64,000 nucleotides of DNA from Acidobacteriota bacterium (GTDB lineage Bacteria; Acidobacteriota; Terriglobia; Bryobacterales; Bryobacteraceae), in contig JAFKEE010000016.1 of assembly GCA_017307505.1 (NCBI GenBank), positions 186,001-250,000 on the forward strand. Direction: 5' to 3'. The notes beneath the pieces are model-generated. The model saw only the letters and a list, made by a program, of their open reading frames with translations, ran no database searches and was not told where the DNA came from. Both the position numbers and the translations under genes were made by a program. Below are positions 11,625-63,130 of this stretch, in pieces (within the stretch, counting starts at the first letter, position 1; each line of letters begins with the position of its first letter).

Positions 11625-12659
11625 TTACCCGCCTAACTCCTGATAGACCTTCCAGGTAAGGTCGACAGCCCGCTGCCATGAGAACTCCGCGGCGCGCACC
11701 TTGCCGCGCTGCACCAGCCTGTTCCGGAGATCCTCATCCTGGATCAGCCGGCGCAGGGCTTCGCCGATGGCCTCCTCGCTGGTGGGATCCACCAGCAGCG
11801 CCGCATCTCCGCAGGCTTCGGGTAATGCTGAGCGATTGGAGGAGACGGTGGGCAGGCCGTGGGCCATGGCTTCGAGGACGGGAATACCGAAGCCTTCATC
11901 CAGCGAGGGAAACGCGAAGATGGAAGCTGAGGCATAGAGGGCGGCCAATTGTTGGCTGTCCACCCAGCCAGTAACGGAGATGCGGTCGCGCGCAGGACTG
12001 GCGGCGATGCGTTCGTGGACAGTGGCGGCCGCATAACCATCCGAACCAGCCAGCACCAGGCGCCATGGTGGCGGCGCACACTGTTCAAAGGCCGCAACGA
12101 GACGGACGAGGTTCTTGCGGAGCTGGACCGCACCCACATGGAGGATCATGGGTTCGCGTTGGACATTGCCGGTAGGTGGCGGCAGGTGCGTGCCATGCGG
12201 GATGACACGCAGGCGGCTTTCGGCGACACCGAGCAGATCGCGGACCTGGTTCGCTGTGAAGCGGGAGACGCAGATGATGAGATCCGCACGTTGGGCGGCG
12301 TCACGGGCCTGGCCGGCGAAGCGGGCTCGAAAGCCGGGCGTGGAGTACTCGGAAGTCAGAACGAAGAGGTCGTGAAACGTACAGATGGCGGGGCCACGCA
12401 AACGAGCCGGAAGCCTTTGATTCAAGCCATGGAAGAGACCGGAACGGAACAGCGAAATGCTGTCGAAGAGGGGAACGGCCGTCACGTTCGGAGGCCTGAC
12501 ATCGCGGCGGCCGCGTAGATAGCGGTGGGGCCGGTAGCACCACCGGAACAACTGATGGGGATGGCTCGCCGCGAGACCGAAGAGGATCTCCCGGCTGTAG
12601 ACGCCGACACCGGACAGGTTCTGTCCCAGGCTGTAGGTGGCGTCGAGAGCGATGTTCAA
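11625..12659 (-). CDS. GT4-family glycosyltransferase
   Basis: A 344-residue GT-B fold enzyme that transfers a sugar from a nucleotide-sugar donor. The N-terminal domain begins MNIALDATYSLGQNLSGVGVYS. The linker GVAESRLRVIPHGTHLPPP and the C-terminal Rossmann-like domain carry the GT4 donor motif PSLDEGFGIPVLEAMAHGLP (E-x7-E) and LPEACGDAALLVDP. No signal peptide is present, so it acts in the cytoplasm or at the inner membrane face. Its ATG overlaps the stop of the sigma-54 activator (ATGA), so translation is coupled. Acceptor and sugar are unknown. Exopolysaccharide or glycan decoration is the likely product. Confidence 0.88.
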   Translation of the reverse strand: MNIALDATYSLGQNLSGVGVYSREILFGLAASHPHQLFRWCYRPHRYLRGRRDVRPPNVTAVPLFDSISLFRSGLFHGLNQRLPARLRGPAICTFHDLFVLTSEYSTPGFRARFAGQARDAAQRADLIICVSRFTANQVRDLLGVAESRLRVIPHGTHLPPPTGNVQREPMILHVGAVQLRKNLVRLVAAFEQCAPPPWRLVLAGSDGYAAATVHERIAASPARDRISVTGWVDSQQLAALYASASIFAFPSLDEGFGIPVLEAMAHGLPTVSSNRSALPEACGDAALLVDPTSEEAIGEALRRLIQDEDLRNRLVQRGKVRAAEFSWQRAVDLTWKVYQELGG

Positions 12660-13714
12660 TCCTGGATCCCGTATTCCTTGAGCTTGCGGTAGAGAGTCGT
12701 CCTGCCGATGCCGAGCAGATGCGCGGCCATGACACGATCGCCCTTAGTGTACTGCAGGGCTCCGATGATGGCGCGCTTTTCCATCTCGGCCAGCGGCAGC
12801 ACCGGCATGACGAAGGTCGACTCTGGCGATGCGGTGGGGCTGGGAGAGACCTGGCTGGGCAGGAACGACAGATTGCCGATGGGCTCTCCGGAGGCAAAGC
12901 GCCGCTTCTGCGCGAAATTCAAGAGGTTGGACGGGGCATCGCCGCCGTGCAGAAGCGGACCGCTGTTGACGGCCACCATGTGCTGGATGCAGTTTTCCAG
13001 TTCGCGCACGTTGCCGGGCCAGTCATAGGACATCATGAGTTCAAGCAACTCGCCGCTGAGGCGATGGCCGTTGCCATAGTTCTCGAGGAAGTGGGCGATG
13101 AGAGAGGGCAGATCGTCCTTGCGCTCGCGAAGCGGCGCCAGGCGCAAGGTGACTACGTTGAGGCGGTAGTAGAGATCCTGGCGGAAAGTGCCTTTGTGTA
13201 CTTCTTCTGCCAGATCGCGGTTGGTTGCGGCGACGACGCGAAAGCTGGACTTGCGGACCTGCAACGAGCCGACGGGACGGAACTCCTTCTCCTGGAGGAC
13301 GCGCAGCAGTTTGGACTGGAGGTCGAGCGGCAGCTCGCCGATTTCATCGAAGAAGGCTGTGCCGCCGTCGGCCTGCTCGATGAGGCCGATCTTCTGGGTG
13401 TGGGCACCGGTGAACGCGCCTTTGGCGTGGCCGAAGAGTTCGCTCTCCATCAACGGGCCGACCATGGCGGAGCAGTCGATGGTGACGAAGGGACCGCTGG
13501 GCGAATTGCGATGGATGGTGCGGGCGACCAGTTCCTTGCCCGTGCCGGTTTCCCCCAGTAACAGTACAGGCCAGTGGCCTTTACCCAGCTTGGCCGCAAG
13601 CCGCAGGACCTGGCGCAACCGCGCGGACTGACCTACTAACTCATAACTCTTCTGTGAGGAATCTACTGTCATCCAGTCTGGTGTCCCAAGGTTCTGTTCG
13701 AGCTGAGCTGGCAT
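12656..13714 (-). CDS. sigma-54-dependent transcriptional activator without receiver domain
   Basis: A 352-residue enhancer-binding protein. After a short N-terminal tail the AAA+ domain has Walker A GETGTGKE (54-61), the sigma-54 contact loop GAFTGA (99-104), Walker B FFDEIGEL (121-128) and a sensor with VAATNRDL. A Ser/Pro linker leads to a C-terminal Fis-type helix-turn-helix (MAAHLLGIGRTTLYRKLKEYG). There is no phosphorylatable receiver or ligand domain, so activity is probably set by another protein or by its abundance. GAGG precedes the ATG. It is translationally coupled to a GT4 glycosyltransferase. rpoN, its polymerase partner, lies 20 kb away in this window. Confidence 0.93.
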   Translation of the reverse strand: MPAQLEQNLGTPDWMTVDSSQKSYELVGQSARLRQVLRLAAKLGKGHWPVLLLGETGTGKELVARTIHRNSPSGPFVTIDCSAMVGPLMESELFGHAKGAFTGAHTQKIGLIEQADGGTAFFDEIGELPLDLQSKLLRVLQEKEFRPVGSLQVRKSSFRVVAATNRDLAEEVHKGTFRQDLYYRLNVVTLRLAPLRERKDDLPSLIAHFLENYGNGHRLSGELLELMMSYDWPGNVRELENCIQHMVAVNSGPLLHGGDAPSNLLNFAQKRRFASGEPIGNLSFLPSQVSPSPTASPESTFVMPVLPLAEMEKRAIIGALQYTKGDRVMAAHLLGIGRTTLYRKLKEYGIQD

Positions 13715-13816
13715 ACGACCTCATAGAGGTAGTGTCCGCACAGCGGGAAATCTCTTCGCTAGATTCAAGGGCACCTATTATTCTACGCGGGCCGGAGCGC
13801 GGCGAGACGAGTTTCT

Positions 13817-14476
13817 CTACTGGCGGGCGCGCATCTCGATGCGGACGACGTAGCTTGCGCCAACATCCCTGGTAAGGTCATCGGCGATGGCCTGAGCTTC
13901 GTCCTGCGTCGAGGTGCGGCCTACACGAAGGAGATAGCTGCCGGGGTTGGTGGGCCGTTCGACAAGGTCGACGGATTGGTATTTCTTCATGAGGGCCTTC
14001 CGCTGCTTGTCGCCCTCCTTCTCGGTAAAGAACCGTTCGACCTGAACTGTGTAGGAGGCGCTTGTGGCAGGGGTGCCCGCATAGGAGAGGAGCTCGACGC
14101 GCACCCGGGCGGTGCCTGGACCGATCATGTTGATGCTGCGCGCGGCCGCGCGGGAGATGTCCACGATGCGGCCCGCGGCGAAGGGGCCGCGATCGTTGAT
14201 GCGGATCTCCACCTTCTTATTGTTGGTGAGGTTGGTGACACGCACGATGGAGCCGAAAGGGAGAGTGCGATGCGCGCCGGTCATCTGCTCCATGTCATAG
14301 ATCTCGCCGCTGGAGGTGGGGCGACCGTGATAAGGGTTGCCGTACCAGCTCGCGATGCCTGTCTCCGACCAGCCAGGAGAGGGCGCGGCAGGCGTGCGTG
14401 CCGTGTGTTTGTGCTTCGAACAACCCGCCAGCGCGAGGAGTGCGCAGGAGCACAGGAGAGCAGCTTCGCGGCGCAT
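13817..14476 (-). CDS. rlpA: RlpA-like lipoprotein (double-psi beta-barrel plus SPOR domain)
   Basis: A 219-residue lipoprotein with lipobox LALAGC (Cys-19), expected in the outer membrane. Residues about 38-130 form the RlpA double-psi barrel: ETGIASWYGNPYHGRPTSSG, TLPFGSIVRVTNL, and INDRGPFAAGRIVDIS. RlpA proteins in some bacteria are lytic transglycosylases acting on peptide-free glycan at the septum. The C-terminal part (about 140-218, SYTVQVERFF through YVVRIEMR) is a SPOR-type peptidoglycan-binding domain. The ATG at 14476 was chosen because the lipoprotein signal starts there. Longer frames run through the promoter region of the neighbouring peptide gene. Confidence 0.88.
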   Translation of the reverse strand: MRREAALLCSCALLALAGCSKHKHTARTPAAPSPGWSETGIASWYGNPYHGRPTSSGEIYDMEQMTGAHRTLPFGSIVRVTNLTNNKKVEIRINDRGPFAAGRIVDISRAAARSINMIGPGTARVRVELLSYAGTPATSASYTVQVERFFTEKEGDKQRKALMKKYQSVDLVERPTNPGSYLLRVGRTSTQDEAQAIADDLTRDVGASYVVRIEMRARQ

Positions 14477-14611
14477 GACAACAATGATGCTAACGGCGCG
14501 CGGATGGTTTCCACAAGCATGTGGACGCGAACGTTTGCGAGAGCGAATGTTTGAATCGTAGAGGCATGATGATGGAGTTGCACGCGAAGGGCCGTAAGGA
14601 CACTTTTTTCC

Positions 14612-14641
14612 TTGACTTTGGGAAGAGACCAAGTTTATAAA
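14612..14641 (+). promoter_or_regulatory. promoter of the 24-residue Lys-rich peptide gene
   Basis: TTGACT (14612-14617), 18 bases, TATAAA (14636-14641). Each hexamer matches 5 of 6 consensus bases. Transcription would start near 14648, just before the palindrome. Confidence 0.6.
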
Positions 14642-14651
14642 GAGATCACAA

Positions 14652-14671
14652 TGCGATCGCATGCGATCGCA
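14652..14671. repeat. 20-bp perfect palindrome (two tandem ATGCGATCGC units)
   Basis: Two tandem copies of ATGCGATCGC together create a perfect 20-bp palindrome centred between 14661 and 14662, containing GCGATCGC twice. It lies at about +4 to +23 of the predicted transcript. It could be an operator, an RNA hairpin in the leader, or a nuclease/methylase-type site. I cannot choose between these. Confidence 0.85.
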
Positions 14672-14698
14672 AAATCTGATGTCACGGAGAATCGATCA

Positions 14699-14773
14699 AT
14701 GAAGAACGCAACCAAGAAAGCGGCGAAGAAGGCCGTAAAGAAAGCCGCCAAGAAGGCCGCGAAGAAGAAGTAA
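14699..14773 (+). CDS. 24-residue Lys/Ala-rich histone-H1-like peptide
   Basis: A very short gene with every expression signal in place. GGAGA lies 7 bases before the ATG, the product is MKN-ATKKAAKKAVKKAAKKAAKKK, and TAA ends it at 14773. The KKAA/KKAV repeat resembles the tails of bacterial histone H1-like proteins and would bind nucleic acid or acidic surfaces as a helix with many positive charges. A promoter (14612-14641), a leader palindrome and a tetraloop terminator (14816-14848) frame it as one transcript of about 200 bases. It may be a nucleoid peptide or a charged membrane-active peptide. Alternatively the RNA itself may be the product. The function is not known. Confidence 0.6.
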   Translation: MKNATKKAAKKAVKKAAKKAAKKK

Positions 14774-14796
14774 GAACGCAGCGTTCCAACGAACGC
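14774..14796 (+). repeat. three alternating GAACGC/GCGTTC units after the peptide stop
   Basis: GAACGC (14774-14779), GCGTTC (14781-14786) and GAACGC (14791-14796). The middle copy can pair with either flank, giving two mutually exclusive small hairpins directly after the TAA and before the terminator. Confidence 0.6.
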
Positions 14797-14815
14797 GGCA
14801 ACAGGAATCAACGAA

Positions 14816-14848
14816 ACGGCCCCGGGCAACCGGGGCCGTAGGTGTTTT
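14816..14848 (+). terminator. terminator of the Lys-rich peptide gene, GCAA tetraloop
   Basis: ACGGCCCCGG and CCGGGGCCGT make a perfect 10-bp stem closed by a GCAA (GNRA) tetraloop, followed by AGGTGTTTT. A very stable hairpin although the U run is interrupted. Confidence 0.75.
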
Positions 14849-14869
14849 AGGGCTCGCCAGGCTTCCTTC

Positions 14870-15871
14870 CTACTCTCTCCGCCTCTCCATCACAAGACAC
14901 CGAAACGTCTCGCCGAGCCCGAATAACAGGCTTTTGAGCTGCATTCGCAACTGTAGAGACGATGCCTCATCCGAGGCTTCGAGCGCAGCGGCAAACTGGT
15001 CGTGCTCACCAGCGGACATGAGCAGTTGAGTGAGAGAACAGAGGGGTGCGGTGACCAGTCCCAGCGACTGCGCACAGTGCTCCAAATGGGTGAAGGGCAC
15101 ATGCGCGGTGATGTCCTGTTCGCCTGGATTGAGCAACACATCGTCGAGGGCCTGGTGACGCCGATAGGCCATGAGCGTTCCACGCGGGAAGCGGATGATC
15201 TCTCGTTCGGTGTAGCCGTAGTCGATGGCCAGAACGAAGCCGCGCGTGAGTGGCTGCGTCATGCGTTCGAGCAAGGATTGCAGGTGGACGGGAAGTTCGA
15301 GCCAGACCTCTTCTTCCTCCCGGAGCTCCGCTACCCGCGCGGACAGTTTCGTGGCATACGGCAGCCACGGACCTGTGAGTGGCTCTCCTTCGATCCACAC
15401 AAACCTGCCGTTGTGGTGATCCACGCGCATCATGCGCGCCTCGCCGCGGCGCACGCGGACGGCATCCACGGGCAAGGCATCGAAGAGCTCGTTGCAGAAG
15501 ACGACGCCTTCAAACTCAGCAGGTGGTGTGCCTCCATCGACATCGACGGCGCAGTATTGAAAGGCTTGCAAGTGCTCTGCCATCTCGCCACGGCCCGCGC
15601 CCCATTCCACGACATGGAACTCATCGCCGGCGCCGAGCTGGCGGCGCCACTGCGCGCATTGCGCGGCGATCAGGCGGCCGAAGACTGGTTGGAGTTGGGT
15701 GGCTGTGTAGAAGTCGCCATGCACGCCGAAGGGGTCTGCCCCCTGTTCACGGCGCGCGCGGCGATAGTAGCCATGCTCGGGATCATAGAGGGCCACGTCC
15801 ATGAAGCGGGAGAAGAGAATGGGACCTTGAGCGCTGATCCCGGCCGCGAGCAGTTGACCGGCCTGGGTCAT
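14870..15871 (-). CDS. MidA/NDUFAF7-family SAM-dependent methyltransferase
   Basis: A 333-residue class I methyltransferase of the DUF185 family. The start ATG (MTQAGQLLAAGISAQG) has GGGAG 8 bases upstream. Typical family segments are FMDVALYDPEHGYY at the N-terminus, DFYTATQLQPVFGRLIA, the SAM loop VVEWGAGRGEMAEHL and CNELFDALPVDAVRV. The mitochondrial homologue methylates an arginine of a complex I subunit. The bacterial substrate is not established. It overlaps the preceding small gene by ATGA, so the two are coupled. Confidence 0.88.
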   Translation of the reverse strand: MTQAGQLLAAGISAQGPILFSRFMDVALYDPEHGYYRRARREQGADPFGVHGDFYTATQLQPVFGRLIAAQCAQWRRQLGAGDEFHVVEWGAGRGEMAEHLQAFQYCAVDVDGGTPPAEFEGVVFCNELFDALPVDAVRVRRGEARMMRVDHHNGRFVWIEGEPLTGPWLPYATKLSARVAELREEEEVWLELPVHLQSLLERMTQPLTRGFVLAIDYGYTEREIIRFPRGTLMAYRRHQALDDVLLNPGEQDITAHVPFTHLEHCAQSLGLVTAPLCSLTQLLMSAGEHDQFAAALEASDEASSLQLRMQLKSLLFGLGETFRCLVMERRRE

Positions 15872-63053: not shown

Positions 63054-63130
63054 GGGCGGTTAGCTCAGCTGGTTAGAGCGCCTGCCTTACAAGCAGGAAG
63101 TCGGGGGTTCAAGTCCCTCACCGCCCACCA
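63054..63130 (+). tRNA. tRNA-Val (anticodon TAC)
   Basis: A complete cloverleaf of 77 bases with the CCA encoded. The acceptor stem GGGCGGT/ACCGCCC, D arm (AGCTCAGCTGGTTAGAGC), anticodon arm CCTGC-CTTACAA-GCAGG with TAC in the loop, variable loop AAGTC and T arm GGGGGTTCAAGTCCCTC fit. It lies between the ThiF-like gene and ridA and is not part of a larger tRNA cluster in the window. Confidence 0.97.

Follow-up and report, generated by a model that had tools for sequence, protein, structure and literature searches.

Protamines and the ribosomal bTHX are short, free-standing, strongly basic peptides, and SgrS/SgrT is a dual-function small RNA with a small ORF. A strongly basic, low-complexity Lys/Ala/Pro composition is found in the histone H1-like Hc2 (PF07382, NF038052) and in the family NF038053. 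A further dual-function small RNA, VcdRP of Vibrio cholerae, is a short structured transcript carrying a small ORF.

The unit described here, located in an Acidobacteriota genome, resembles both kinds of system. Its peptides have the composition of Hc2 and NF038053, and its expanded orthologs resemble free H1-like tails, whereas the peptides are as a rule only 11-32 residues long. They are built of Lys and Ala, not of Arg as in protamines, and their length changes freely, unlike that of bTHX, a peptide with a fixed ribosomal site. Like VcdRP, the unit would be a short structured RNA with a small ORF, and in both the RNA and the peptide seem to be separable; in contrast to the dual-function small RNAs, its peptide is a polycation and lineages are seen in which the ORF has been lost and the RNA kept. 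The promoter and terminator signals typical of such RNAs are present and conserved, the small ORF appears to be under coding selection, and the RNA appears to be conserved without the ORF in two genera (g94 and g96). Two known kinds are combined in a new way, and the unit falls under no family of Pfam, NCBIfam or Rfam.

Within the window (the whole stretch of 64,000 nucleotides analysed), a single unit was read from the sequence, consisting successively of a promoter, a 5' hairpin, a Shine-Dalgarno box, a 24-codon ORF, a second hairpin and a terminator (Table 1). The sequence-only reading had proposed a stand-alone unit of this kind, with a tetraloop terminator; its elements can be read directly, its coordinates are right, and the unit recurs in relatives. 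Half of the residues of the peptide are lysines (12 of 24). The terminator was detected by a terminator scanner, and the fold of 14645-14848 is more stable than chance (z = -4.17; 0 of 200 shuffles as stable). A sigma-70 consensus scan of 13700-15700 reported no promoter; the scanner requires a T at position 6, which TATAAA does not have, and the promoter call therefore rests on conservation in relatives. The unit is flanked by a divergent rlpA-type gene and a convergent Methyltransf_28 (MidA-type) gene, and its DNA is present in a single copy in its own genome. An in-frame upstream ATG at 14651 (14651-14773, +) would lengthen the peptide to 40 aa; its use is unlikely, because it lies inside the 5' hairpin, an element of variable length among species. 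Elsewhere in the neighbourhood, 12656-13714 (-) encodes a sigma-54 activator with AAA+ and Fis-type HTH domains and no receiver domain among its Pfam matches.

Table 1. Elements of the unit, in window coordinates
Feature	Position	Strand	Details	Basis
Whole unit	14611-14848	+	promoter to terminator	sequence
Promoter	14611-14641	+	CTTGACT -35, TATAAA -10; T-rich tract just upstream	
-35 box	14612-14617	+	TTGACT	direct reading of sequence
-10 box	14636-14641	+	TATAAA; 18-nt spacer from -35	
5' UTR hairpin	14652-14671	+		covariation among relatives
Shine-Dalgarno box	14685-14691	+	CGGAGAA, 7 bases 5' of ATG	GGAGAA invariant in 30/30
Putative ORF	14699-14773	+	ATG at 14699, 24 aa + stop: MKNATKKAAKKAVKKAAKKAAKKK	comparative evidence
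Stop codon	14771-14773	+	TAA	sequence
Hairpin 3' of stop codon	14781-14796	+		sequence; moderately supported
Intrinsic terminator	14816-14848	+	10-pair stem (14816-14839), 4-base loop, T-rich tail to 14848	terminator scan, fold

Searches of Pfam and NCBIfam gave no family match for the window peptide, PF07382, NF038052 and NF038053 included. The best-scoring relatives reached 19.2 bits against PF07382 (L264, 32 aa; curated cut-off 40) and 33.1 bits against NF038053 (L320, 114 aa, without the conserved -35; curated cut-off 80). In Rfam the unit has no match at gathering score, the sole match within the window being a tRNA gene at 63054-63127 (+). At E values up to 0.5, eleven homologous loci gave four Rfam matches, each with a score well short of gathering; two of these overlie the unit's 3' portion in L230. 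The lack of matches in the protein and RNA libraries searched is attributed to a product shorter and simpler than their entries. A literature search, whose coverage largely leaves out subscription journals and so does not imply absence in print, returned no description recognisable as the unit; passages of PMC7074687 mention neither sRNA nor histone.

In the window's own family (f1), the first searches left 31 loci, the window's own counting twice, and in all of them a K/A-rich ORF stands behind a common leader. The ORF is 20-25 aa long, with the exception of L014 (79 aa), and all 30 aligned units, the window's among them, share CTTGAC, TATA, GGAGAA and ATG without variation. From these 30 leaders (window and 29 relatives) a covariance model, R1, was built, which takes in 24 nt of the ORF. 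R1 matches 137 of 150 genomes of the family (105 of the 109 that are of high quality) and 73 of 76 genera; for the source genomes of the 30 leaders the match is by construction. An earlier figure from the first DNA search (43 of 61 genomes) is unused, because many of the lower matches were only K/A repeats of other proteins. A further 80 loci (60 of the family, 20 of family f8) yielded the ORF in 76, i.e. 75 by script and L403 by eye; they were taken mostly one per genus, with a few chosen for weak scores or from genera known to lack the ORF, and thus give no unbiased rate. The ORF is absent in L387, L388, L406 and L407, the last two being genomes already read as L252 and L259.

In 136 of the 137 matching genomes R1 finds one place, and G127 has a weak second match without a -35; a mobile or multi-copy element is disfavoured by this distribution. 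The unit is also carried by records titled Acidimicrobiia, Arcobacter sp. and Nevskia soli (L066, L142, L143). These were equated with G063:C11, G076:C86 and G115:C352, which are placed in the window's family, and the record titles look mislabelled.

The short peptide proposed by the sequence-only reading is supported as real by comparative evidence. The reading frame is conserved across genera, and the loss of the frame between conserved flanks that would have counted against the proposal was looked for and is not the pattern found. For 34 nearest-neighbour pairs of equal length, whose ORFs had been picked by composition ahead of the test, dN/dS is about 0.32 in the K/A frame, and 3.4 and 8.3 in the other two frames of the identical pairs. 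Differences at codon positions 1, 2 and 3 number 49, 36 and 171; 138 are synonymous and 118 nonsynonymous, with 27% expected to be synonymous. These comparisons indicate that the Lys/Ala frame is under purifying, frame-specific coding selection. Plain DNA repetition does not explain the frame, because Lys and Ala codons are mixed.

The 105 pooled ORFs span 12-97 aa; 95 are at most 32 aa long, and ten are longer (44-97 aa) with unchanged composition. They contain 47.6% K, 34.5% A and 6.9% P, and no acidic residue. Val (27), Tyr (9), Met (3 beyond Met1), Phe (2), Leu (1) and Ile (1) are present in these small numbers, and Trp and Cys do not occur; a membrane-active or type I toxin peptide is disfavoured by this composition. 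Since composition stays constant over such a range of lengths, it is composition, not length, that is kept. Composition and charge, rather than a fixed sequence or length, seem to be what is maintained in the peptide, as expected of an H1-like tail or a protamine-like counter-ion. In L014, L368, L370, L378, L379, L380 and L384 the orthologs have grown to 56-97 aa by KKAA/KKAAP-type repeats behind an unchanged leader, and the range from mini-peptide to H1-like tail is spanned at one kind of locus. Of the three functions that the sequence-only reading had guessed at, the membrane-active peptide is the one that loses ground here. The nucleoid peptide is favoured by the composition and the longer orthologs, DNA binding remaining putative, and the dual RNA gains support from the conserved ORF-less orthologs described below; that interpretation as a whole is partly supported.

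Structure is also evident at the RNA level. In the 5' hairpin 95.6% of cells are paired, 22 cells have changed on both sides and the covariation score is 0.412, each of these values being equalled in 0 of 500 shuffles; five of the eight pairs have changed on both sides, a number that 15 of 500 shuffles also attain. In slid controls, 21-49% of cells are paired. The alignment thus indicates that the 5' hairpin covaries. Within the family the median z is -2.5 for the 5' UTR (86 units), -1.48 for the first 42 bases after the stop codon (87 units), -3.06 for bases 30-95 after it (87 units) and -0.15 for a downstream control (86 units). The 5' UTR of f8 is similar (median z -2.54, 16 units), and bases 30-95 after the stop codon show no structure there (median z -0.02, 17 units), perhaps because this slice cuts the shorter 3' UTR of f8.

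Beyond the family, R1 matches 13 of 396 genomes of a phylum sample, three from the window's family and ten from f8. The ten f8 units encode peptides of 13-24 aa starting MATKK or MAAKK and possess a similar promoter, hairpin and Shine-Dalgarno box. Model R2, built from these ten units, matches 174 of 399 genomes of the class at E <= 0.01. Forty loci, chosen across families and partly for weak scores, were then read: 33 have a K/A-rich ORF, six lack it and the remaining locus is a weak second match. ORF-bearing units were read in eight further families of the class (f2, f4, f6, f8, f93, f95, f98 and f100), the f6 peptides being 11, 11, 12 and 22 aa long and including the shortest found. In the sister family f3, of the same order, R1 gave no match; the 95 matching genomes among the 120 belong to f1, with one from f2. 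R3, run with looser filters on 12 f3 genomes, matched four at E <= 1 and gave nothing convincing; the best match (L319), the one that was read, has no K/A peptide. Phylum-wide, R3 matches 91 of 396 genomes at E <= 0.01. Outside the class a K/A-rich ORF is present in five of the 12 loci read (L310, 29 aa; L311, 26; L312, 14; L318, 39, counted from ATG; L314, 92) and in none of the other seven. On these matches, nine or more families of a single bacterial class appear to share the unit, which may also occur in other classes of the phylum.

The ORF is not always retained. Every unit read in the f8 genera g94 (8 units) and g96 (9 units) lacks a K/A-rich ORF behind its SD-like box. The transcript-sized stretch has a mean pairwise identity of 0.79 in g94 and 0.63 in g96, against 0.36 and 0.36, and 0.35 and 0.32, in the respective flanks. 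In g94 the segment between TGGGAG and AGGCAAA, both included, hardly varies, and five hairpin or terminator pairs have changed on both sides; in g96 CAGGGAGA is invariant. A gene starting MTRRRWIAD lies within about 300 bases of the unit start in all four g94 and g96 units checked. It is also found 3' of four of 17 ORF-bearing f8 units (g354, g95, g353 and g100), and not beside the other 13 or beside the ORF-less L248. Since this gene accompanies both ORF-less and ORF-bearing units, the locus is shared for those genera. In L224 it encodes a Methyltrans_RNA domain, and we take it to be rsmE-type.

Some ORF-less units hold short frames, one of which recurs at a fixed position in several g94 species; their start codon and length vary between species, and most run through the terminator. 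In a peptide-profile search of 23 genomes for the peptide at other places, an insensitive search that recovered only two of four ORF-bearing controls at the locus, the matches in ORF-less genomes fall in frames of 73-1044 aa. Elsewhere the start codon has been lost in two g91 genomes (L248, L263), and in g54, which belongs to the window's own family, three units are disrupted, each differently (L241, L387, L388), two others being intact (L247, L377). The ORF loss in g54 and in the two g91 genomes may be plain decay. In L387 (bases about 300-480) the frame from ATG enters the terminator hairpin without an earlier stop, as if it were a nonstop message.

Taken together, it is fairly probable that the unit is a dual-function RNA gene, yielding a minimal Lys/Ala polycation and an RNA with a role of its own. 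As a single-copy monocistronic gene it would have two outputs from one transcript of about 200 nt. In most of the units read, the transcript would be translated into the polycation, which would most likely be an unfolded nucleic-acid counter-ion, comparable to a detached histone-H1 tail or a protamine; its composition is what points to nucleic-acid binding. The RNA itself, with the 5' hairpin, the GGGAG box, a single-stranded stretch with AAGGCAA and the terminator, would act independently of the peptide, on whatever target it may have. Such a role is suggested because the RNA stays conserved in genera that have lost the ORF, and two genera at least are thus likely to have a second function at the level of the RNA. 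The argument covers these two genera of one family; in other lineages the signals in the RNA may serve nothing but the mRNA. The wider proposal, put forward more tentatively, is of an undescribed dual-function RNA gene, of an age that would explain its presence in at least nine families of the class and perhaps in other classes, with a minimal H1-tail-like polycation down to 11 aa and an RNA able to outlive it; the polycation may bind its own RNA and act together with it.

The main rival is a mini-gene for an H1-tail-like polycation alone, whose hairpins merely stabilise and end the mRNA. Strong coding selection, the ORF in 33 of 40 loci across families and in 76 of 80 further loci, and the unchanged composition of the longer orthologs all suit such a gene; the ORF-less units would then be a later, lineage-specific conversion to a non-coding RNA. 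Because 17 units from two genera retain a conserved RNA but no ORF, four of them at the shared locus, we regard this as possible, though clearly less probable, and favour dual function over it. A structured small RNA whose ORF just loads ribosomes or keeps the RNA unstructured, the peptide having no role, would account for an ORF that is dispensable in some lineages and reduced to 11 aa in f6. Purifying selection on the amino acids, the absence of acidic residues from 105 peptides and growth to 97 aa at constant composition speak against it, and it is improbable.

A leader or attenuator peptide, through which lysine supply would control the downstream gene, was suggested by a short Lys-rich ORF with a hairpin terminator close behind. 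The next gene in the window is convergent, neighbours differ between families (ten loci) and an rsmE-type gene follows in only eight of 22 f8 loci checked; this highly improbable reading was rejected, given how varied the neighbours are and that the unit has a terminator of its own. ORF-less units retain a GGGAG or GGAGA box, which could serve as the CsrA site of a sponge RNA. This reading is just as hard to credit and was rejected for f8 and f4, where the CsrA family was found in 0 of 11 genomes, against 4 of 4 genomes tested from the window's family.

The unit is a single-copy gene in most genomes sampled of a soil-bacterial family, yet it is unmatched in the libraries. If translated, it would offer, at one kind of locus, a natural series of minimal polycations that range from 11 to 97 residues and lend themselves to testing the function of H1-like tails in bacteria. 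In the ORF-less genera the RNA is naturally parted from the peptide, which makes the dual-function hypothesis directly testable.

Two further K/A/P proteins, L320 (G015, 114 aa) and L321 (G128, 76 aa), are encoded behind a similar GGGAGAATC box without the conserved -35, and are possibly replaced or rewired orthologs.
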